Made by a program: the position numbers and the translations under genes | Notes under the pieces: generated by a model | Seen by the model: only the letters and a program-made list of their open reading frames with translations | The model's database searches: none | What the model was told of the DNA's origin: nothing | In this document: positions 24,597-63,931 of the stretch, in pieces | Layout of the letters: the number at the start of each line of letters is the position of its first letter | Position numbering within the stretch: the first letter of the stretch is position 1 | NCBI RefSeq assembly: GCF_026015965.1 | Contig: NZ_CP110383.1 | Coordinates: forward strand, 1,553,501-1,617,500 | DNA from: Selenomonas sputigena | GTDB lineage: Bacteria; Bacillota; Negativicutes; Selenomonadales; Selenomonadaceae | Length of the DNA: 64,000 bases | Direction of reading: 5' to 3'

Positions 24597-25730
24597 TCAT
24601 TCTTCCTCAATCTCGCGACTCGTCAGCAGATACTCGACCTTGACATCTGTGCGCAGGTTGAGATCCATAAACTCGCCATCCATCGTCTGCACGACGGGAA
24701 GTGCCGCGAGGCGTGACTCGTCGATGTAAATGATCTTGCCCGCTTCGCCATTCGAAAGCTTGACCCAATTTCCGTTCAAGGAATGGCAGACGCGGCGAAT
24801 GAAACGGAAGCCGAATTCCGTGTCGAGCTGCCCATTCATGATGTCGTCCGACAAAATGTTAAACACTTCGAAAGGCGAGCGTTTCTTCGCGTAGGAGCGG
24901 TCCGACGCCATCGCATCGTACATGTCCATGATGGCGAGGACGCGTGCGAATTTGCCGATCTCTTCCTTGACGAGACCTCTCGGATAGCCCGAACCATCAC
25001 CTCTCTCATGATATTGCAGCACAGCCTCGGCGATCTCCTTGTCCTCGCCCAAGCCTCCCGCCATGATCAGCTCATGTCCGAACTTCGGATGTTCCTGCAT
25101 AATCTTGCGCTCATCAGGCGTCAAGACGCCCTCCTTGTCGAGCATCGCCTGCTCGATGCGCAAATTGCCAATAAGGATGAGAGAGCCCGCCGTAATGAGG
25201 CGCAGCTGATCTTTCTGCGGCATCTTGAGCCACTTGCCCATAAGCCCTGCCAAAATAGCCACATGGAGGCTATGATGGATGGTGTACTCGCCTTTCGCCG
25301 TCATGTTGTGGATGTGCGCGACAGCTTTCGCACCCGAACAAAGCGGCAGGATGTTCTGTGCCAGAGTTTCTGCTGAATCTTTGTCGACAGAGCCGTGCGC
25401 CTTCGTGACTTCAAAGAGGGATTTCAGCTCGATGAAGCAATCGCCATAGTCCTTGACGTACCCTTCGTCGAGAATCGGCTCCTTCAGCGGAATGATTTTC
25501 GCGGCTTCCCCCTGCACTCCCTGCGGCTTCTGAGGCATGGGAGATGGACCTTCTTCCCCGCCTTCTTCCCGAATTTCCACGGAGACAATGTTCCTCTCAG
25601 ACAGGGAGTCGATCATCTGCTGATTGAGCACCGTACCCTCTCCCAAGAGGACAGACATATCTTCCTTATAGACTGCCTGTCCGACGACCATGCCTTCCTT
25701 GAGCTGGTCTACTGTATACTTCTTCAGCAT
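24597..25730 (-). CDS. Degenerate HD-GYP domain protein
   Basis: The 377-residue protein has an N-terminal DUF3391-like segment and an HD-GYP domain (about 135-330), normally a cyclic-di-GMP phosphodiesterase. The GYP part is kept (YHERGDGSGYPRGL, residues 240-253), but the HD motif is replaced by SLILIGN (183-189), so metal ligands are missing. Catalysis is therefore doubtful and a c-di-GMP sensor role is possible. The ATG at 25730 follows AAGGAG. About 75 residues after the barrel form a PilZ-like or beta-rich tail of unknown role. Confidence 0.75.
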   Translation of the reverse strand: MLKKYTVDQLKEGMVVGQAVYKEDMSVLLGEGTVLNQQMIDSLSERNIVSVEIREEGGEEGPSPMPQKPQGVQGEAAKIIPLKEPILDEGYVKDYGDCFIELKSLFEVTKAHGSVDKDSAETLAQNILPLCSGAKAVAHIHNMTAKGEYTIHHSLHVAILAGLMGKWLKMPQKDQLRLITAGSLILIGNLRIEQAMLDKEGVLTPDERKIMQEHPKFGHELIMAGGLGEDKEIAEAVLQYHERGDGSGYPRGLVKEEIGKFARVLAIMDMYDAMASDRSYAKKRSPFEVFNILSDDIMNGQLDTEFGFRFIRRVCHSLNGNWVKLSNGEAGKIIYIDESRLAALPVVQTMDGEFMDLNLRTDVKVEYLLTSREIEEE

Positions 25731-25948: not shown

Positions 25949-26950
25949 ATGAAGACGCGAATAAAACTCCTACTCTTCTCTCTCATGCTGCTCGCAGCGG
26001 GGAGCGGCGCGTACCTCTATCATGCGCACGAATCCGCCATGCAGCACGAACGTGCAGCGCACCTCAAGCTCTCAGGCAACGTCGACATCCGCGAGGTCAC
26101 GCTCGCTTTCCGTCCGAGCGAACGCATCTCCGAAATCCTCGTGGACGAAGGCGACTCCGTCGAAGAAGGCCAACTTCTCGCACGGCTCGACTCGGCGGAA
26201 CTTGCACTGAACCTGCAAAAAGCAAAGGCGCAGACTAAGGCGCAGGAGGCCGTCTTGGAGAAGCTGAAAAACGGCACGCGCAGTGAAGAGATCCTCCAGG
26301 CGCAGGAAAACGTGCGCGCCGCAGCGGCCGCTTCCGCCAACGCCAGGGGCATCTACGCACGCATGTTGGAAATCTACGAGACGAGCGAGGGCGTCAGTCT
26401 GCAGGAGCTCGACAACGCGCGCGCCGCAGCCGAGTCCGCCGAAGCGAAGACGAGAGCCGCCGAAGCCGCACTCGAAGAAGCGCGCACAGGCGCGCGAAGC
26501 GAAGATATCCGACAGGCGGAAGCGACGCTTGCCGCACTCCGCGCAGAAGAGGAGCGCCTCGCCCACCTGCTCACGCAGTACGAGCTTCGTGCGCCGTCGG
26601 CGGGCGTCATCCGCTCGCGCCTCCTCGAAGTCGGCGACATGGCTTCGCCCGCCATGCCTGTCTTCAAGCTCTCCCTCATCGAGCGCAAGCAGGTGCGCGT
26701 CTATGTATCGGAAGCCGATCTCAGCCGCATCCACGAAGGACAGAATGCGCTCATCACGACGACGAGTGAAACCGACAAGCCGCTCACCGGGACGGTCGGC
26801 TTCATTGCATCAACGGCGGAGTTCACGCCCAAGACGGTCGAGACCGAGGATCTTCGGACATCCCTCGTCTACGAAGTGCGCATCTCGGTCGACGATCCCG
26901 ACAACCGCCTGCGCCTCGGCATGCCCGTGAATGTGCAGGTCGACCTATGA
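25949..26950 (+). CDS. HlyD/YbhG-type periplasmic adaptor
   Basis: The 333-residue membrane-fusion protein has one N-terminal membrane anchor (about 5-22), a lipoyl half-motif, a long Ala/Glu-rich coiled coil (about 85-205) and the second half-motif (LRAPSAGVIRSRLLEVGD). It resembles YbhG/YhiI adaptors that serve ABC-2 exporters. AAAGGAGG precedes the ATG. Its stop overlaps the ABC ATPase start by 4 bp. Confidence 0.9.
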   Translation: MKTRIKLLLFSLMLLAAGSGAYLYHAHESAMQHERAAHLKLSGNVDIREVTLAFRPSERISEILVDEGDSVEEGQLLARLDSAELALNLQKAKAQTKAQEAVLEKLKNGTRSEEILQAQENVRAAAAASANARGIYARMLEIYETSEGVSLQELDNARAAAESAEAKTRAAEAALEEARTGARSEDIRQAEATLAALRAEEERLAHLLTQYELRAPSAGVIRSRLLEVGDMASPAMPVFKLSLIERKQVRVYVSEADLSRIHEGQNALITTTSETDKPLTGTVGFIASTAEFTPKTVETEDLRTSLVYEVRISVDDPDNRLRLGMPVNVQVDL

Positions 26951-53449: not shown

Positions 53450-53828
53450 TCAAAAAAATCGCCCCTTGCAGGAATCACAATCCTGCAAGGGGCGAAATAT
53501 TTCGCGGTGCCACCCTTTTCAAGTCAAGTTCGGAAAACAAAAAAGCCACTTCGCCGCCTCGGGACGAAATGGATTCGCAGCCACCCTGAAATTGACCTCT
53601 CATTTCGGGTACAGGAAAAACCGATACCCTAGCCCTCTAACGGTGGCAGCCGTTCCAGCCTACTCGGCACAGCCTTTCGGTGGACTCTCACAGGACCATT
53701 CACCATGCGCTTCCCGCCGATCATCACACCTCCCCGAAGGGTCATCGGCTCGCTGTAGGAAAGTTTTCAAGGCTACTATTTCCTGCTCTACGATTTACAT
53801 ATATACACCTGACGATTCGAAAATCGAT
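53450..53828 (-). ncRNA. T-box riboswitch leader of the trp operon
   Basis: The minus-strand leader ends with the T-box sequence GGGTGGCACCGCG (53503-53515), followed by a 14-bp terminator stem (53460-53473 with 53481-53494) and seven T. The upstream part has stem I elements (AGCGAGCCGATGA and GAAGCGCATGGTGAATGG). A UGG triplet at 53696-53698 is the likely Trp specifier. Uncharged tRNA-Trp pairing with the T-box would favour the antiterminator and read-through into trpF. Confidence 0.93.
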
Positions 53829-54070: not shown

Positions 54071-55546
54071 TTACGCCTGAATCGCCGCATATCGCTCGCT
54101 TGCCAGCACCTTTTCCATATACTCATACGGCGTGATGCGATCCTCCACCACCATGGAGAATACGCTGGGACTGCAGCCGGAAACGAGCATGACGCCTTGC
54201 TCGTTCATCTTGACGGGCTGCTGCTGACGGCGGCTCTGCACGTTCCAGAACACGATGCGCGGCAAGCGATAGCCCGCTTCGGCAAACATCTTCTTCGCCT
54301 GCTCAAAATTTGTCACAGAGGCATTTTCCGTACAGGCGTCAAACTCCATGTCCGTGATGATGTAAAGCACCTCGGGCATCTCCTGCTGCGACACGCCGCC
54401 CGAAACCGCCGCATGTAGCAGAAGGCGGAAGACGCCTTCGAGATTCGTATTTGCCACCTCGTTAAACGTCCTGCAATAGCTGACCTTGTCCGCAATCGTC
54501 GTGCCCTTGATCTGAAGGATGCGCGGTTTACGAGAAAACGTGATGAAATGATCGCGGAACGCGCCCTCATTGCGCTCTGCAAAATAGACGGCAAGCGAGA
54601 GCGCGACGCAGGCCGGCAAAGGCTCTCCGCCCCCATACATGGAAGCGGAACCGTCGAGCACGACGAGCGCATTCTCCCCATGCGTATAGTCGGGAAGCGC
54701 CTTCCATGTGATGTCGAGGGTACGCGAAGCCTCCTCCGAAAGACCTCTTTCACTCTCCCATTCGCAAAGCGGACGAATGACATCGTAGGGATAGAGCGTC
54801 CCCGTATGAAGAGTCTCCTTCCCGCGCGCCACACGCTCCAAGAAAGCCTCGTAGCGCTTCGCATCGTTGCGTCGAAAAGCCTCGCGGTACTTGAACATCG
54901 CCCTGGACGGCTGCTTCGCATAATCAAAGCTGTAGTCCTTCGTGCGCAAATGGTCTTCGATAATCCGGATGCAGCGGCGCAGACGGACGAGCATCTTTCG
55001 ATATTCCGCCTCCTGCATCCCGAGCGACGCCGCCAAATGACGCGCCTTAGCACGCGCCTCACGCGACGAAGTATTGACGGACGGCAGCCACTTCGCGAGG
55101 AGGGAGACGTCCTCCCCTTTTTGCGACGCGCCGAGGTCGCTTTCCAGCTGCTTGCGAATCAAGCGAACGGCGGCAGACTCCAAAGGTGTGCCGAGAAGTG
55201 CGAGCACATCGTCCCAGCGCCCGTACTCGGGGATGAGCGGCAGATTCTTCTCCACGCACGCAGGCGCATACGCGGCAAGATGGCGCAGAAGCACGCGAAA
55301 GACGCGACGCTCGCCCAGTCCGCCGCGAACATCACGCGCATAGAAGAGCGTGCGCAGCGCACGCACAGAATCCTCGGCAAAAGCGCGCGTGAAGCGCACG
55401 ACGATTTCAGCCTCCTTCGCAGAGCGCAAGGCACCGACCGCCGCAAAGAAGTCGAGCACGTCCGAGCCTGAACTGGCGTAAGTCGCGGCATCGTTCTCCG
55501 TTCGCGTGTACGTCTTATTGCTTTCCTCTTTGAGCAAGTCGAGCAT
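54071..55546 (-). CDS. DUF2828/TROVE-like protein with von Willebrand A domain
   Basis: The 491-residue protein has an N-terminal helical-repeat region (about 1-285: NDAATYASSGSDVLDFF, FYARDVRGGLGERRVF, IPEYGRWDDVLALLG) and a C-terminal vWA domain with MIDAS motif Asp298-x-Ser300-x-Ser302 (VVLDGSASM). This is DUF2828, which resembles the TROVE module of Ro60/Rsr, ring proteins that bind small Y RNAs. The ATG at 55546 follows AAGGAGG. A structured RNA with its own promoter is encoded directly upstream on the same strand. RNA binding is inferred. Confidence 0.8.
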   Translation of the reverse strand: MLDLLKEESNKTYTRTENDAATYASSGSDVLDFFAAVGALRSAKEAEIVVRFTRAFAEDSVRALRTLFYARDVRGGLGERRVFRVLLRHLAAYAPACVEKNLPLIPEYGRWDDVLALLGTPLESAAVRLIRKQLESDLGASQKGEDVSLLAKWLPSVNTSSREARAKARHLAASLGMQEAEYRKMLVRLRRCIRIIEDHLRTKDYSFDYAKQPSRAMFKYREAFRRNDAKRYEAFLERVARGKETLHTGTLYPYDVIRPLCEWESERGLSEEASRTLDITWKALPDYTHGENALVVLDGSASMYGGGEPLPACVALSLAVYFAERNEGAFRDHFITFSRKPRILQIKGTTIADKVSYCRTFNEVANTNLEGVFRLLLHAAVSGGVSQQEMPEVLYIITDMEFDACTENASVTNFEQAKKMFAEAGYRLPRIVFWNVQSRRQQQPVKMNEQGVMLVSGCSPSVFSMVVEDRITPYEYMEKVLASERYAAIQA

Positions 55547-55642
55547 CGTGCTTCCTCCTTCGCGCAAAAAGCCCGGCGCAAAGTGCAGATGCAAATGTGC
55601 CGGACAGATTCATTCTCCTCAGCATACGCCGGGAACATATAC

Positions 55643-55815
55643 AAAAACAAGATGCCGCGGACGGAAACGGCAAGCCGCTCCGTCCTGTGAGGTCGTGCCT
55701 CACTATTGTGACTATACGGATCAAGATTGCTGTTGGCATCTTTTTGCGAGACGCCTTTCCGGGGGTGCCCGCAACGGGGTACCCACGGCCTCCAAGAATA
55801 GCTGTACGCGTCTCC
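55643..55815 (-). ncRNA. Candidate Y-RNA-like structured RNA
   Basis: Read leftwards, the RNA would begin at the stem GAGACGC/GCGTCTC (55808-55814 with 55748-55754), enclosing a GGGT..ACCC hairpin. A second domain is closed by AAGATGCC/GGCATCTT (55735-55742 with 55649-55656), enclosing GTGAGG/CCTCAC and GGACGG/CCGTCC hairpins, then TTGTTTTT. A promoter places its start at the first stem. Position beside a TROVE-like gene recalls bacterial Y RNAs. It could alternatively be a structured leader or attenuator of the DUF2828 gene. I saw no clear tRNA-like T-loop. Confidence 0.45.
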
Positions 55816-55817
55816 TG

Positions 55818-56067
55818 TATATGATACCATGATATACAGCATCACACAACAGCTTTTCCAATATTCAGACGATAACTTCATCGAACTGCAGCTGGGATTC
55901 TTCCTTTCTTTGCTCCATAATGAAGGAAATGTACTACGAAACAGTCAATACCTGAAAATTCACCATGCGAAAGGAAGTATCCCCATGCAGTACACAGCTC
56001 AGTCTCATCACAATCGCCAGCTTGACGCTCGAAGGCGTAGATATGACGCGGTTCTTTCTACCTTAAT
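55818..56067 (+). pseudogene. Decayed, internally deleted copy of ogt with its promoter region
   Basis: The 170 bp before an ATG at 55985 are clearly homologous to the region upstream of ogt at 58872 (shared ATATTCAGACGAT, ACCTGAAAATTC-like and CGAAAGGAAG blocks). The first codons read MQYTAQS, matching MQYTAHY of Ogt. Then the sequence jumps to the last 15 codons of ogt, encoding LTLEGVDMTRFFLP and a stop in another frame. About 420 bp of the coding middle, including the active-site Cys, are gone. Confidence 0.75.
55821..55849 (-). promoter_or_regulatory. Promoter of the structured RNA and DUF2828 gene
   Basis: TTGTGT (55844-55849) and TATCAT (55821-55826) on the minus strand are 17 bp apart; the predicted start at about 55814 coincides with the first base of the outer stem of the candidate RNA. 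Confidence 0.5.
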
Positions 56068-56815
56068 TTTCGTAAATACTGAGCATGACATAGCTTCCAT
56101 CCAGTCCGAAGGAAAGATTCTCGCCGGGAGTGATGCGATAAACTGCAATGCTGCTTCTCGACGACTCCTCAGGAATTTGCGGCAGACGGTAGGCGCGGGC
56201 GTACGCCTCCCGCGAATCGTTTACCCCGAGGCCTGAGCGGTCAAAGTGCAGCTTGCTCCCCCGGAGAAGCACGAGCCCTGTCACGATTCCGTTTTCGTGG
56301 AAAATGATGAGCCTCTTATCCGGATAATATAGGCCCTGGGAAAAGCTCATGTCACCTGCATGACAGGACTCCTCCCGACGCAATTCCTTCCCCACTCCGA
56401 GAATCTCCTGCACGGCACTCATGCGCATACCGAAATGAATACCGCTGACAGACTCAAAGTAGTCCGGAGTCAGCGTGCGCTGCAATGCATCGCCGCCCGC
56501 CAGCGCGATATAGTCCCCCGCACCGCCGAAAAGCTTCCAGCCGATATGAAGCGTGCGCTCCCCGCCCGCTTCTTTGACGCGGAACTCCGCGCCGCCGGAT
56601 TCAACACCGCCTACCCATTGTCCCCAGCCGACGACTTCGCAGCCGTTGATCGTACGCTCCCCGATCGTGAGCGCCGCGCCTCCGTCTTCATCGTACCAAG
56701 TGCCCGCCATGCGCTCCAAAATCACATCGAGATCGTCGCGTGGCTCCGCCGCCGCACTCTGTCCTAAAGCGAGCAGCACGAACGCACATAAGGCGAGCAT
56801 CGCCAAACCTTTCAT
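56063..56815 (-). CDS. Secreted hypothetical protein, paralogue 1
   Basis: The 250-residue protein has a signal peptide ending near QSAAAEP. The mature part starts with a lipocalin-like or beta-rich stretch (ILERMAGTWYDEDGGAALTIGE, residues 32-53), followed by an HFGMRMSAVQEILG segment. It is about half identical to the next gene upstream, so the two arose by tandem duplication. Its C-terminus overlaps the ogt remnant by 5 bp. Function unknown; an envelope or binding role is a guess. Confidence 0.75.
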   Translation of the reverse strand: MKGLAMLALCAFVLLALGQSAAAEPRDDLDVILERMAGTWYDEDGGAALTIGERTINGCEVVGWGQWVGGVESGGAEFRVKEAGGERTLHIGWKLFGGAGDYIALAGGDALQRTLTPDYFESVSGIHFGMRMSAVQEILGVGKELRREESCHAGDMSFSQGLYYPDKRLIIFHENGIVTGLVLLRGSKLHFDRSGLGVNDSREAYARAYRLPQIPEESSRSSIAVYRITPGENLSFGLDGSYVMLSIYEN

Positions 56816-56858
56816 CTCGCACCTCCCAATCCTGCAAAGATTCCACTATCCCCAAAAA

Positions 56859-57620
56859 TCAATACGCCACAGCGCTGAACCTGACATAGCTCCCATTCTT
56901 TCCGAACGAGAAGAACTCCCCGGGAGCGATCTCATAGAACGCCAGCGGATTGTTGTACGTCCTTTCCTCAGGGATCTCGGACATCTTATAGGCGCGCGCG
57001 TATGCCGCCCGCCCGTCGTTTGCCCCGAGGCCGGAGCGGTCAAAATACAGTTTGCTCCCTGGCAGCAGAACAAGGCCTGTCACGATACCGTCTTTATGGA
57101 GAACGATAAGCCCCTTGCCCGGATAATACCAGCCGTAAGCAAAAGTATCATCGCCTGCACGGCAAATATTTTCCCTGCTCAATTCCTGCCCCGCACCGAG
57201 CCTTTCCCGCACGGCGCGCGTGCGCATACCGAGGCGAACGCCCTCGACGGATTCGGAGCAAGCAGGATTCAGCGTACGCTGCAGCGCTTCCCCATCGTTC
57301 AGTCGGATGTAGTCCCCCGGCCCGCCGAAAAGTAGCCAACCAATACGCAGCGTGCGCGTGCCGGCCGCCTCTCGAATGCTGAAGTCCAGAGAGCCGCTGC
57401 CGGGTCCGTTTGCCAGTCGATCGCCGCCGACAACCTCGCAGCCGTTGATCGTATTGCCCTCAATCGTGAGCACCACACGCCCCTCTTCATCGTACCATGT
57501 GCCTGCCAGACGCTCCAAAATTCGATGGACTGAATCCGGCGAAATTCCCATCGCTGCCTCGCTCTGCCCCGAAACGAGCAGCACGAGTGCGCATAAAATA
57601 AACAAAGCAAATCGTTTCAT
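56859..57620 (-). CDS. Secreted hypothetical protein, paralogue 2
   Basis: The 253-residue protein shares the design of its downstream neighbour: signal peptide (FALFILCALVLLVSGQSEA), ILERLAGTWYDEEGRVVLTI, INGCEVVGG, LRIGWLLFGGPGDYIRL and GIVTGLVLLPGSKLYFDRSG. The ATG at 57620 follows GGAGG; a longer frame exists but starts in the hairpin. An intrinsic terminator-like hairpin sits directly before the ribosome site. Function is unknown. Confidence 0.75.
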   Translation of the reverse strand: MKRFALFILCALVLLVSGQSEAAMGISPDSVHRILERLAGTWYDEEGRVVLTIEGNTINGCEVVGGDRLANGPGSGSLDFSIREAAGTRTLRIGWLLFGGPGDYIRLNDGEALQRTLNPACSESVEGVRLGMRTRAVRERLGAGQELSRENICRAGDDTFAYGWYYPGKGLIVLHKDGIVTGLVLLPGSKLYFDRSGLGANDGRAAYARAYKMSEIPEERTYNNPLAFYEIAPGEFFSFGKNGSYVRFSAVAY

Positions 57621-57633
57621 CTCGCACCTCCAT

Positions 57634-57681
57634 AAAAACAAAAATGCATCCATTCAGAAGCTTCGCTTCATGAATGGATGC
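57634..57681 (-). terminator. Terminator-like hairpin immediately before a ribosome site
   Basis: GCATCCATTCA (57646-57656) pairs perfectly with TGAATGGATGC (57671-57681). Read leftwards it is followed by ATTTTTGTTTTT and then, within a few bases, the GGAGG of the gene at 57620. It either ends an upstream transcript or acts as an attenuator. Confidence 0.7.
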
Positions 57682-57868: not shown

Positions 57869-58573
57869 CTAAACATATTCCTTTACGCGCTTCAAATCCG
57901 TAAGCAGAAGCGGATTATCTTGCCGCATGCGGTCTACAAGCATTTTTCCTCTTGCAACCGTCGGTTCTTCACACAGCCAGTCAAGCTCCTTTTGCGTAAC
58001 GCCCACCATTTGCAGGAACTCCACCCTGCCATGCACGGTATCCATCCCACCCAACTGCGGATCGGGAGCCATGATAATCCCCACCAATTTCGTATCCGAC
58101 TCCAATCGTATTGGTGAGTTCGCAGGCATGAAATGATACGCCTCGAAGTAATTTCCTGTATCGTATACATATCTGGCAATATTCTGCATCAAGTTGATCA
58201 CCCAGCGCGGCTCATTATGTGCCATGCTTCCATCCTTATTTTCCGCATCTTTATCATCTACAAAAGGCACGATGCGCATGGTAAATTCGCATCCCCAACC
58301 GCTGAATTCCTTGTTCGTACTATCGGGATCATAATACAAATCCGACATACCGTAGCTTACAACATGACGATGAAATTCCTGCTCACTGTTGTCATATATA
58401 CTGATTCCATCAAGCGGATCCTTGCCGCCCAACATAAATTTGATGATCGTACCGTAATGCCTTGCCTCTGTATTCGGGTAGATCTTTTTCAAAGCAGCAT
58501 CAATCGCATCCCAGCCCGGCGCCGCATCATCCGCACCGTCATACCTCTCGACATACTCCTTTTTATTGGGCAA
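57869..58573 (-). CDS. Suppressor of fused (SUFU) domain protein
   Basis: The 234-residue protein is a bacterial SUFU-family member: PGWDAIDAALKKIYP at the start, HYGTIIKFMLGGKDPLDGIS, GYNFEAYHF-like GNYFEAYHFMPANSPI, and GVTQKELDWL near the end. Bacterial SUFU proteins are often immunity proteins of contact-dependent or polymorphic toxins. I place the start at TTG 58573, since GGAGG lies 8 bp before it; the frame is open upstream as an acidic stretch. No toxin gene is adjacent. The gene may be an orphan immunity gene. Confidence 0.82.
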   Translation of the reverse strand: MPNKKEYVERYDGADDAAPGWDAIDAALKKIYPNTEARHYGTIIKFMLGGKDPLDGISIYDNSEQEFHRHVVSYGMSDLYYDPDSTNKEFSGWGCEFTMRIVPFVDDKDAENKDGSMAHNEPRWVINLMQNIARYVYDTGNYFEAYHFMPANSPIRLESDTKLVGIIMAPDPQLGGMDTVHGRVEFLQMVGVTQKELDWLCEEPTVARGKMLVDRMRQDNPLLLTDLKRVKEYV

Positions 58574-58662
58574 AATCTTTTCCTCCTTCCTATCGTCTTC
58601 ACTCGATTCATCCACGATGCCATCATCATTTTCCTGATCTTTGTTGTTTTCCTTACTGTTAA

Positions 58663-59574: not shown

Positions 59575-60994
<1,420 letters not shown>

Positions 60995-61420: not shown

Positions 61421-61912
61421 TTACTTGTCATGAATCTTCGCAGCTTTTTCAATCCACGTTCCCATATTATCATATCCATTATCTGCAACATAATCGTAGA
61501 TGCCATCAGCAATGCGATCAAAGTACGCTGGAGAATTATCGTTATAATATCCTATTACCTCGTGAGTATTACTTCTAAAGGATGTAGATAAAGTATGCAT
61601 ATCCTTAATAGCATTTATATGTACGCCTATTACAGCATTGCCCCTTTGCAAGCTTTTACAAATTTCATATTGCACAAAAGGACGTTTCAAAGTTTCGGTT
61701 CCAATCAGGACTACTGTTACAGAGGTTCCTTTAAGTTGCTTATCAATCCACTTATGAACAGCCGTATCTCCCTGTCTCTTAATTTGCTCAAAATCTGCCT
61801 TATCAATGAAGCCAACAGCTTCTTTACCCTGAGTAACCCAACTATTGCGGACAACCATTGAACGATTAATGTCGTTATCGTAATGAAAACTAAAAAACAC
61901 TCTACGCGCCAC
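61421..61912 (-). CDS. ThsB-like TIR domain protein (DUF1863)
   Basis: The 163-residue protein matches the TIR-like DUF1863 group that includes Thoeris ThsB: ARRVFFSFHYDNDI at the start, TSVTVVLIGTETLKRPFVQY then Glu83 (YEICKSL), and GNAVIGVHINAIKD. Glu83 is the likely catalytic residue for NAD processing or signal synthesis. No ThsA gene is present. It is sandwiched between a second TIR gene and a small membrane protein, with 18-bp gaps. Confidence 0.85.
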   Translation of the reverse strand: MARRVFFSFHYDNDINRSMVVRNSWVTQGKEAVGFIDKADFEQIKRQGDTAVHKWIDKQLKGTSVTVVLIGTETLKRPFVQYEICKSLQRGNAVIGVHINAIKDMHTLSTSFRSNTHEVIGYYNDNSPAYFDRIADGIYDYVADNGYDNMGTWIEKAAKIHDK

Positions 61913-61930
61913 AGATATTCTCCTTTCTAT

Positions 61931-62518
61931 TTATCTTGTTGAAAACCAGTGTGCCAATGTCTGGTAGTTCAACTTTCCATTTTCTGGTGTTACTGTGTAA
62001 TATCCTTTTTGAATATAAGTACCATTATCATATTTGTCGTTGCCATCTTCATAACAGATATATGGATATAATGACAAATACTCTGCGCCTTTATAAAAAC
62101 CATCATAACTGCCCTTTGGCTTCAACGGGAACAGTGCGATATGGGCTTTAAATTTTTGAGCATCACCATATCCAAGTTCCCAATTACACCACTTGGAGTC
62201 TATTGCAGCATTTGTAGCAAGCAGAATAAATTTGTCACATTTTTTAATTCGATCCTTCAAATTAGCCGCGGTCGCTGCTGTGGTAATTGGGGACATTGAG
62301 GTGTCTTGGCTGTCGATATAGGCTTTTACATCGTATTGCTCTTGCAAAAAACCAAGTACGCCTTTAAGTTCTTGGAGGTCATCATGCTTATGTGAAATAA
62401 AAACGGTGGTCTTTCTCTTTCTAGTGTATAGTGCGCATTCGTTAATATTTGACATTGCTTCATTTAAACGAACATCCGCATACGCTTGAAACGAGCCTTG
62501 CTCAATCAACTTTTCCAT
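61931..62518 (-). CDS. TIR domain protein (TIR_2)
   Basis: The 195-residue protein has a TIR domain at about 36-135: TTVFISHKHDDLQELKGV, DVKAYIDSQD, KCDKFILLATNAAIDSKWCN with Glu114 in NWELGYGDA as candidate catalytic residue. The N-terminal 35 residues are helical. The last 60 residues are not part of the usual fold. AGAGGA precedes the ATG at 62518. It is the first gene of the three-gene cassette, just after the serine recombinase. Confidence 0.85.
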   Translation of the reverse strand: MEKLIEQGSFQAYADVRLNEAMSNINECALYTRKRKTTVFISHKHDDLQELKGVLGFLQEQYDVKAYIDSQDTSMSPITTAATAANLKDRIKKCDKFILLATNAAIDSKWCNWELGYGDAQKFKAHIALFPLKPKGSYDGFYKGAEYLSLYPYICYEDGNDKYDNGTYIQKGYYTVTPENGKLNYQTLAHWFSTR

Positions 62519-62569: not shown

Positions 62570-63139
62570 TCATCTTTTCCCTCGCACATATCGCGAAAGC
62601 GTCGAGACGCTCAGGTTCGTTACAGCAGCCACATCCTTATAGGAACGTCCTTCGCGCAGCAGGGCAAGCGCATGTTCCTTCCTCGCCCTATCGATCGGAG
62701 GCCTGCCCTCACGAAACCCCTGTTTCGTCCTGGCAATCGACTTGCCTTCCTGCATACGTTCCAGAATCATGCTCCGCTCAAGCTCGGCCACCGCAAGAAG
62801 CGTCGTAATAAAGAACTTGCCCATGGGCGTCTGGTCGAGCAATCCTACATTTAAGACATTGACTTTCACGCCTCGCTCAATCAGAGAACGGATCACATGG
62901 ATTCCCTCCTCCACGTTGCGGGCAAGGCGATCCAGCTTTGTCACAATCAAAACGTCGCCCGCTTCCATGCGGCCAAGCAGACCTTGAAGCTTCGGCCGCT
63001 CCATGGATGCTCCGGAAAACTGCTCCACCGTAACCGAAGAGGCTCCATTTTCTCTCAGGCGTTGCTCCTGTTCCTCCAAGGAATTTCCATGAGCCTTCTG
63101 CCCCTTTGTCGATACTCGAGCATAGCCCCAAACCGTCAT
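62570..63139 (-). CDS. Serine recombinase (resolvase/invertase family)
   Basis: The 189-residue protein is a small serine recombinase. It starts MTVWGYARVSTKGQ with nucleophile Ser10, has GASMERPKLQGLL, VTKLDRLARN and ELERSMILERMQEG, and a C-terminal helix-turn-helix (YKDVAAVTNLSVSTLSRYVR). The ATG at 63139 follows GGGGG. A large palindrome overlaps its promoter. It may resolve or invert nearby DNA, and suggests past mobility of the region. Confidence 0.92.
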   Translation of the reverse strand: MTVWGYARVSTKGQKAHGNSLEEQEQRLRENGASSVTVEQFSGASMERPKLQGLLGRMEAGDVLIVTKLDRLARNVEEGIHVIRSLIERGVKVNVLNVGLLDQTPMGKFFITTLLAVAELERSMILERMQEGKSIARTKQGFREGRPPIDRARKEHALALLREGRSYKDVAAVTNLSVSTLSRYVRGKR

Positions 63140-63186
63140 TTCAATCCCCCGTTTTGACCAAAAGTTTTGATTATCCTTTCCCTCTG

Positions 63187-63215
63187 ATTCTACCATAAAA
63201 GTTTAAACCGGTCAA
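63187..63215 (-). promoter_or_regulatory. Promoter of the serine recombinase gene
   Basis: TTGACC (63210-63215) and TAGAAT (63187-63192) on the minus strand are 17 bp apart. The -35 lies within the arm of the palindrome at 63204-63239. Confidence 0.7.
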
Positions 63216-63283: not shown

Positions 63284-63931
63284 TCATTCCCTCCCCTTGC
63301 TCTTGTCCTCGTCCGTTCTTCCTTTCAACAAGACTTTCCGCTTCGGGTACTTCTCCTTCGGCATCTCCTTTATGGTTTCTCTCATGAGCCCTGCCATGAA
63401 ACGACTGTCAACTGCGCCCAGGATAGCTCTTGCCATGAGCTTTTCTCGATCGACATTTGCCATGTCCAACTCATAGCCGGCATTCTTCGCCACTTGGTAG
63501 ATCAACATGTGCTGCGTCCTGCCGTTTCCCTCTCGGAACGGATGCAGCATGTTCAGATCGCAATAGAGATCGGCGGCCTTTTTGCAAAACCTCTCAGCAT
63601 CGAGTCCCTGTAGATTGTTGTCCTTTTTCAGTCGTTTGAAGATGTCCGCGCCCTGTTCTTCAAGATATGGGCAATGGCAGAATACAGTACCCTTTTTTGC
63701 AATGTCCACGGTACGGAATTTCCCGGCCCAATCGTAGACATCCTGAAACAGCTCGTAATGGATTTTCTTCAACGTACTCAAATCGAACTCTCGAAAGGTT
63801 TGCTTCTTCAAGTCAATATATCGCGTCGCCGCAAAATTCTTCTCGTAATCCAAGAGTTCATGTCCATCCTGTATCCCCAGCTTGTTCCGCAGCACCCCGT
63901 TGGGTTGAAGATATGGATCCCTTGCACTCAT
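63284..63931 (-). CDS. fic: Fic domain AMP-transferase toxin
   Basis: The 215-residue Fic protein transfers AMP or related groups to target proteins. The Fic motif HPFREGNGRTQ begins at His130, and the substrate flap (WAGKFRTVDIAKKGTVFCH) is typical. No inhibitory helix is apparent inside the protein, so a separate antitoxin is expected, as in class I Fic systems. Its ATG overlaps the stop of the next upstream gene as ATGA. Confidence 0.92.
   Translation of the reverse strand: MSARDPYLQPNGVLRNKLGIQDGHELLDYEKNFAATRYIDLKKQTFREFDLSTLKKIHYELFQDVYDWAGKFRTVDIAKKGTVFCHCPYLEEQGADIFKRLKKDNNLQGLDAERFCKKAADLYCDLNMLHPFREGNGRTQHMLIYQVAKNAGYELDMANVDREKLMARAILGAVDSRFMAGLMRETIKEMPKEKYPKRKVLLKGRTDEDKSKGRE

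Follow-up and report, generated by a model that had tools for sequence, protein, structure and literature searches.

A structured RNA element located upstream of a DUF2828 gene in Selenomonas sputigena is part of a widespread family of RNA modules that is tied to DUF2828 genes in bacteria and phages, and these modules very probably represent a Y-RNA-like noncoding RNA family whose partner is the DUF2828 protein, much as Ro60/Rsr is the partner of Y RNAs. The existence of the element was confirmed, and it is Y-RNA-like in layout and context; by the tests applied, it is not a member of the YrlA family. It lies in a stretch of 64,000 nucleotides (contig NZ_CP110383.1, positions 1,553,501 to 1,617,500), referred to here as the window. 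Coordinates given without a further identifier are positions in this stretch, and the loci and genomes used for comparison carry L and G numbers.

Two tandem RNA modules upstream of the DUF2828 gene

The DUF2828 gene (54071-55546, minus strand; start codon read by eye) is preceded on the same strand by two tandem copies of one layout, which consists of a basal stem of 7-8 bp, the motif ACAGCAA, a variable head, and a closing strand followed by G. Module 1 (55747-55815, minus strand), identified by sequence comparison, has the stem GAGACGC/GCGTCTC, the motif ACAGCTA and an inner hairpin. Module 2 (55648-55742, minus strand), identified by the pattern scanner described below and by fold energy, has the 8-bp stem AAGATGCC/GGCATCTT, the motif ACAGCAA, inner hairpins and a closing CTTG, and TTGTTTTTG is located 3' of it. 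A preliminary description of this DNA had proposed a structured RNA of about 170 nt that folds into two domains, and both points were confirmed, as the element spans 168 nt (55815-55648) and the DNA upstream of the gene folded into two closed domains (z -2.36, with 3 of 200 shuffled sequences as good). That the element comprises two copies of a repeated module, that the motif next to the stem differs from that of YrlA, and that the window copies have no clear tRNA-like domain had been missed.

Module 2 folded strongly when taken alone (z -4.72, 0/200 shuffles as good). The fold energy of module 1 alone was not significant (z -1.18, 19/200), and neither was that of the sister-species copy (z -0.74, 43/200); the support for module 1 comes from comparison across Selenomonas-group copies. 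Their alignment (seven copies) contained 48 consensus pairs, 11 of which had changes on both sides that preserved the pair; several module-1 pairs were broken in two of the seven rows. Between the window and the sister species (G001) the identity of the element is 93%, and in the latter the first hairpin is altered yet still pairs as judged by eye. The sister copy of module 1 (L002) carries ACAGCAA and was listed by the scanner, which missed module 1 of the window, with its stem, ACAGCTA and closing CG, and found module 2 at full score.

When 60 relatives were searched for the element at the level of plain DNA, a clear match was obtained in the sister species only, the next match being 40 bases long (E 0.0014). 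An Rfam search of the region returned nothing over cut-off; a weak match to PVT1_3 was judged to be due to chance. No tRNA or tmRNA was found in the window. A strict form of the module pattern matched the genome of the window once, at module 2, and as this pattern fails on 8 of the 17 DUF2828 genomes described below, other forms of the module may exist elsewhere in the same genome.

The module family in bacterial DUF2828 loci

The scanner required a 7-bp stem, 2 nt, the motif ACAGCAA, in which a single mismatch was tolerated, and a strand that pairs with the stem; the module definition adds the closing G. It was applied to 84 related loci, namely 80 genome-contig loci (the best 80 of 84 relatives), L002-L004 and the window. 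The 1.5 kb upstream of the genes contained 153 sense modules and no antisense module, versus 0.8 in DNA shuffled by single bases, while 24 modules were found in the 1.5 kb downstream and one on each strand inside the genes; L117-L119 seem to repeat genomes among L025-L029, and some matches overlap or use a common 3' strand (L032, L093). An upstream module within 1.5 kb was present in 65 of the 84 loci, and 71 loci had between one and six modules within this distance on either side. Three upstream modules were found in L003, whose DUF2828 protein is 54% identical to the window protein. Stray matches among the loci of the class genomes described below comprised an antisense match in L121 and, at a distance from the array, three sense matches at 6.5.

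Because the scanner itself demands pairing and tolerates one mismatch in the motif, the assessment of covariation and of motif strength was based on sites for which an exact ACAGCAA was the sole selection criterion (143 sense, 10 antisense). At 97 of the 143 sites a perfect complement of the site's own 7-mer, followed by G, lay within reach. Reassignment of the stems at random among the sites lowered this number to 9.5 on average (never more than 18 across 500 runs), and with a deliberately different stem the average was 3.8 (maximum 9). The paired sites comprised 35 different stems. The check for compensatory changes in homologues that the preliminary description had called for was thus run, and it showed covariation of the stems among distant bacteria. 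Loci L124-L128, L130 and L131, from one other family of the class, have a closing strand that ends in CTAG in place of CTTG, with the stem still paired.

The records with DUF2828 genes bear titles that include Selenomonas, Centipeda, Treponema, Succinimonas, Blautia, Enterococcus and Mycolicibacterium, among others, and the gene is also present in metagenome-assembled genomes titled Planctomycetes and Chloroflexi, labels that may be wrong. Among 72,556 plasmid records, four encode a relative.

Association with DUF2828 rather than TROVE

The module signature goes with DUF2828. The class of the window, presumably Negativicutes, was represented by 200 genomes; DUF2828 is encoded in 17 of them, and modules were present in all 17. 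The strict pattern matched 10 of the 200 genomes, of which nine were DUF2828 genomes with the match beside the gene, and a reversed-pattern control matched none. The remaining match, the only one in 183 genomes without DUF2828, was in G102 and antisense to a 131-codon reading frame. TROVE genes were found in none of the 200 genomes, the window's own included, and in none of 30 DUF2828 genomes or records; the same search did detect TROVE in a single control genome and, in another class, in 24 of 197 genomes. The module was also considered as a feature of TROVE loci and rejected, with no module in 25 TROVE loci (80 kb) from these TROVE-positive genomes.

Phages and viral contigs

A DUF2828 relative was detected in 671 of 50,697 phage records, and in many of the listed mycobacteriophages it is annotated as 'Ro-like RNA binding protein'. 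Several phage copies are located within tRNA clusters. Eight of ten phage records examined had clear sense-strand modules. The doubtful cases were L112, with one match 3.4 kb away, and L113, with a single match that has no closing G; stray matches comprised one weak antisense match, found in L105, and a small number of sense matches with low scores (L105, L110, L114).

Among 80 viral-contig loci (the best 80 of at least 587, with gene ends set at a common position for most), 57 had modules within 2.5 kb, amounting to 166 sense and 1 antisense, with 2 in genes and 1.3 in shuffled DNA. In a blind search of viral contigs with the pattern, DUF2828 was encoded in 55 of 120 stretches (among the matches listed), and these 55 contained 67 matches on the DUF2828 strand and none on the opposite strand. 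A check of 49 further viral pattern records, which left out 15 viral stretches, located DUF2828 elsewhere in 21 of them (in one case only a short piece at a contig end).

Three scanner modules were identified at 25,289-25,552 of the genome of Listeria phage CKA15 (OR088597.1), in which CKA15_055 is a DUF2828 relative. According to the accessible part of the report on this phage, three highly transcribed noncoding regions lie up to 2 kb upstream of CKA15_055 and were suggested by the authors to be Y RNAs, the CKA15_055 protein was detected in purified particles, and HHpred related it to Rsr of D. radiodurans (PMC12282133). Unlike the module family described here, these suspected Y RNAs are given no motif or structure in that part of the report. 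The one region with coordinates there, 26,236-26,727 of OR088597.1 (4980-5471 of L105), is very highly transcribed and contains no scanner module, which makes it another abundant RNA; the modules may correspond to one of the other two regions.

The DUF2828 protein

The window protein, which combines DUF2828 with DUF7788 (vWA), matched Pfam DUF2828 (PF11443) at 106 bits against a cut-off of 29 and therefore belongs to this family. It also matched PHROG 850, 'RNA-binding protein' (E 9.4e-130). Residues D299, S301, S303, T368 and D400, which we take to be MIDAS-type residues, were unchanged across 32 aligned relatives. Comparison with a profile of 16 TROVE proteins by hhalign related the DUF2828 vWA part to that of Ro60 (probability 95.2%, E 2.8e-8, columns 249-465). 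TROVE (PF05731) was absent from the Pfam matches of the window protein at E 0.001, a search of solved structures gave no significant relative (one TROVE protein, E 1.8), and PADLOC assigned no family.

tRNA-like heads and the YrlA model

The HEAT-repeat ring of Ro60/TROVE proteins binds Y RNA, and YrlA binds Rsr and tethers PNPase. In a survey of tRNA-likeness that included 212 modules from 94 loci, a T arm was recognized in 48 modules and in none of the antisense or shuffled sequences. In 17 of the 212, the order of elements was T arm, acceptor 3' strand, loop, acceptor 5' strand and D arm, which is the order of a tRNA opened at the anticodon. Modules of L050, L051 and L058 appeared by eye to have kept the anticodon arm and lost most of the acceptor stem. 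At the position of the window head, L026 and L027 have a full T arm or a hairpin that resembles a T loop, and judging from these relatives the window head may be a worn tRNA-like domain. Eight tRNA genes are predicted upstream of DUF2828 at 2388-3964 of L030, one of which, with a TCA anticodon, is called tRNA-SeC; some of the eight may be mimics.

In the YrlA layout, as described in the accessible part of PMC8394870 and as represented in the Rfam model, the tRNA-like head consists of a T arm, a closed acceptor and a D arm. The Rfam model of YrlA, RF02553, matched full-length in L375 (47.7 bits), L376 (44.3), L378 (41.4), L056 (47.1) and L058 (46.8), and the RNA beside the TROVE gene of L377 scored 43.2 bits. 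In L056 and L058 the match ended within 2 nt of the module ends, whereas in L375, L376 and L378 the model began at or near ACAGCAA, so that its terminal stem is not that of the module and lies 9 nt off. In seven loci, including L056 and L058, there were 10 matches, nine of them within scanner modules and the tenth at 369-476 of L087. Weak matches (E up to 10) also occurred in 13 of 14 control genomes. No match over cut-off was obtained in 12 DUF2828 loci, in 12 genomes and records, or in 20 TROVE loci, and the whole of Rfam returned only tRNA in the twelve DUF2828 loci.

Like YrlA, the partner of Rsr/Ro60, the modules have paired 5' and 3' ends, formed by the covarying 7-bp stem, and a head, which is tRNA-like in a subset, and they adjoin the gene of a Ro60-like protein and sometimes RtcB. 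Unlike YrlA, they accompany DUF2828 and not TROVE, no Ro60/TROVE gene being present in the DUF2828 or class genomes, and ACAGCAA lies after the covarying stem, so that the position of the stem relative to the motif differs from that in the model. They also occur in one to six copies per locus, score below the RF02553 gathering threshold, and in many cases, the window included, have heads that are not tRNA-like. The setting resembles the Salmonella rsr-yrlBA-rtcBA RNA repair operon, as described in the accessible part of PMC7790460, in that a Ro60-like protein, Y-RNA-like modules and RtcB can share one neighborhood; it differs in having DUF2828 in place of Rsr and in the limited occurrence of RtcB, which lies within 4 kb of 17 of 94 loci and not near that of the window.

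Ro60/TROVE-like proteins of jumbo phages are mentioned in two among PMC12282133, PMC7790460, PMC8394870, PMC7824862 and PMC7765460; no description of the modules was found in the accessible parts of these five articles or in the other literature searched, which covered the key Y RNA literature in part. A literature search for DUF2828 returned plant papers only. A 2014 survey by Chen reportedly placed Y RNAs near Ro60 in more than 250 bacterial and phage species, and some of these may overlap with the modules. The claim that the DUF2828 module family is new is limited by this coverage of the Y RNA literature.

Transcription and neighboring genes

A promoter, defined by at least 9 of 12 consensus matches within 50 nt before a module, was found before 13 of 63 first modules, compared with 2 of 88 later modules and 55 of 1620 random places, and in 10 of these 13 first modules the -10 box ended 6-9 nt before the stem. 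On this sequence evidence some arrays seem to start at their own promoter; for most, none was recognized. The promoter that the preliminary description had placed at the first stem is present as TTGTGT-17-TATCAT (55849-55844 and 55826-55821, minus strand; read by eye), which ends 5 nt before module 1. It is a plausible but weak promoter and was not listed by the consensus promoter scan. TTGAAA or TTGAAG-17-TACAAT occurs at the equivalent place in L025, L026 and L029.

Between module 2 and the gene, a hairpin (55605-55571, minus strand) is followed by TTTTT, reaching 55566; a 75-nt stretch folded here with z -2.60 (3/200 shuffles as good), and the structure is a possible terminator or attenuator. 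The likely ribosome-binding site of the gene, read by eye, is AAGGAGGAAG (55551-55560, minus strand).

Neighboring families within 4 kb of the 94 loci were defined as BLAST clusters with one member of each checked. They included RtcB (17 loci), RlaP (7), Band 7 proteins (7) and two clusters of WYL-type regulators (13 and 12 loci). The RtcB and RlaP neighbors fit an RNA repair setting in a minority of the loci, the window excluded.

Interpretation and alternative explanations

Several observations weigh against modules as Y-RNA-like partners of DUF2828. No module was present within 1.5 kb in 13 of the 84 bacterial loci (some with short flanks, and three with a module farther up) or within 2.5 kb in 23 of the 80 viral loci (some with short flanks), 28 of the 49 further viral pattern records have no DUF2828 (many being fragments), and 46 of the 143 ACAGCAA sites have no perfect partner. 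The most highly transcribed noncoding region of CKA15 contains no scanner module. As many as 164 of the 212 modules have no T arm, and the window modules have neither a T arm nor an RF02553 match. All RF02553 matches are below the 69-bit gathering threshold, the best at 47.7, and the model scores about 37 bits at other places, probably tandem tRNA genes. Furthermore, the similarity between the DUF2828 and TROVE profiles is confined to the vWA part, the N-terminal part being unaligned.

One alternative, that the modules belong to the YrlA family and were missed owing to the narrow seed of RF02553, overlaps with a Y-RNA-like partnership and is unlikely. It would account for full-length matches as strong as that of the TROVE-adjacent RNA, for the agreement of match and module ends in L056 and L058, and for the 20 TROVE loci that likewise gave no match over cut-off. 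However, the cut-off was not exceeded in the 12 DUF2828 loci or in the 12 genomes and records, the 25 TROVE loci have no module, and TROVE is absent from the 30 DUF2828 genomes or records; this alternative was rated lower because three alignments place the start of the model at ACAGCAA or close to it, with the terminal stem of the model displaced from the covarying module stem.

The modules could also be a cis-acting leader, either a protein-binding site or an attenuator, that regulates DUF2828 mRNA with no role in trans. The upstream-only placement of modules (1.5 kb) in 59 of the 84 bacterial loci and the hairpin with its T run before the window gene agree with a leader, but the modules are downstream only in 6 of the 84 loci, phages L106, L107 and L110 have most of theirs downstream, in L108 a gene intervenes and the distance upstream reaches 2.5 kb, DUF2828 is outside the module's stretch in 21 of the 49 further viral records, and tRNA-like heads have no evident use in a leader, which makes this explanation highly unlikely. 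It is barely credible that chance has gathered the repeats near DUF2828 as mobile elements, recombination elements or worn tRNA islands: such an origin would fit the tandem copies, the predicted tRNA genes interspersed in some loci and the carriage by phages, but not the strand bias relative to DUF2828, the covarying stems beside a single motif, or the single strict-pattern match in 183 genomes without DUF2828.

The interpretation of the modules as Y-RNA-like partners of DUF2828 agrees with the preliminary proposal of a Y-RNA-like locus, for which the modules that accompany DUF2828, their YrlA layout and the permuted tRNA-like domains of some of them (with RF02553 scores below cut-off) provide support. 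Protein binding, processing and function of the modules are predicted from sequence. The array would be transcribed from a promoter at the first stem and then cut or terminated into module RNAs, the DUF2828 protein would grip the basal stem and ACAGCAA, and the head might recruit or compete with tRNA-handling factors or gate the DUF2828 protein. The resulting ribonucleoprotein could serve in tRNA/RNA surveillance and repair, a use that phages with tRNA clusters would share; a repair role is suggested because RtcB or RlaP genes lie near some loci.

A broader proposal seems about equally likely to hold or to fail, namely that the modules and DUF2828 form a second Ro60/Y-RNA-like system across bacterial phyla and phages, in which a common handle (stem and ACAGCAA) carries interchangeable RNA modules with diverse heads, including tRNAs opened at the anticodon or without acceptor stem, so that enzymes of repair, modification or defense would be offered several different tRNA mimics by one protein. 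The Y-RNA-like interpretation proposes an RNA partner, and hence a function that can be checked, for DUF2828, a family of unknown function in phages and several bacterial phyla. If true, it would mean that the Ro60/Y RNA theme is not confined to TROVE proteins, demonstrate modular tRNA mimicry, and tie such mimicry to RNA repair and to phage tRNA clusters, which may protect against tRNA-cleaving host systems.

Other features of the window

Upstream of the array, two proteins encoded at 56063-57653 (minus strand) have no Pfam match and look like paralogues by eye, and beyond them lies an open reading frame common to the sister species and three Selenomonas-group loci. A T-box leader (53485-53799, minus strand) matched RF00230 at 93 bits, equal to its cut-off; a perfect TTGACA-18-TATAAT at 53864-53835 accompanies it, and the downstream genes look by eye like a trp operon. 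A bacterial SUFU-domain protein is encoded at 57869-58615 (minus strand), and a HipA_C-like protein, slightly below the Pfam cut-off, at 59575-60603 (minus strand). Two adjacent TIR-like genes (ThsB_TIR and TIR_2; 61421-62518, minus strand) adjoin genes for a resolvase (62570-63196) and a Fic protein (63284-63931), an arrangement that may represent a defense island.
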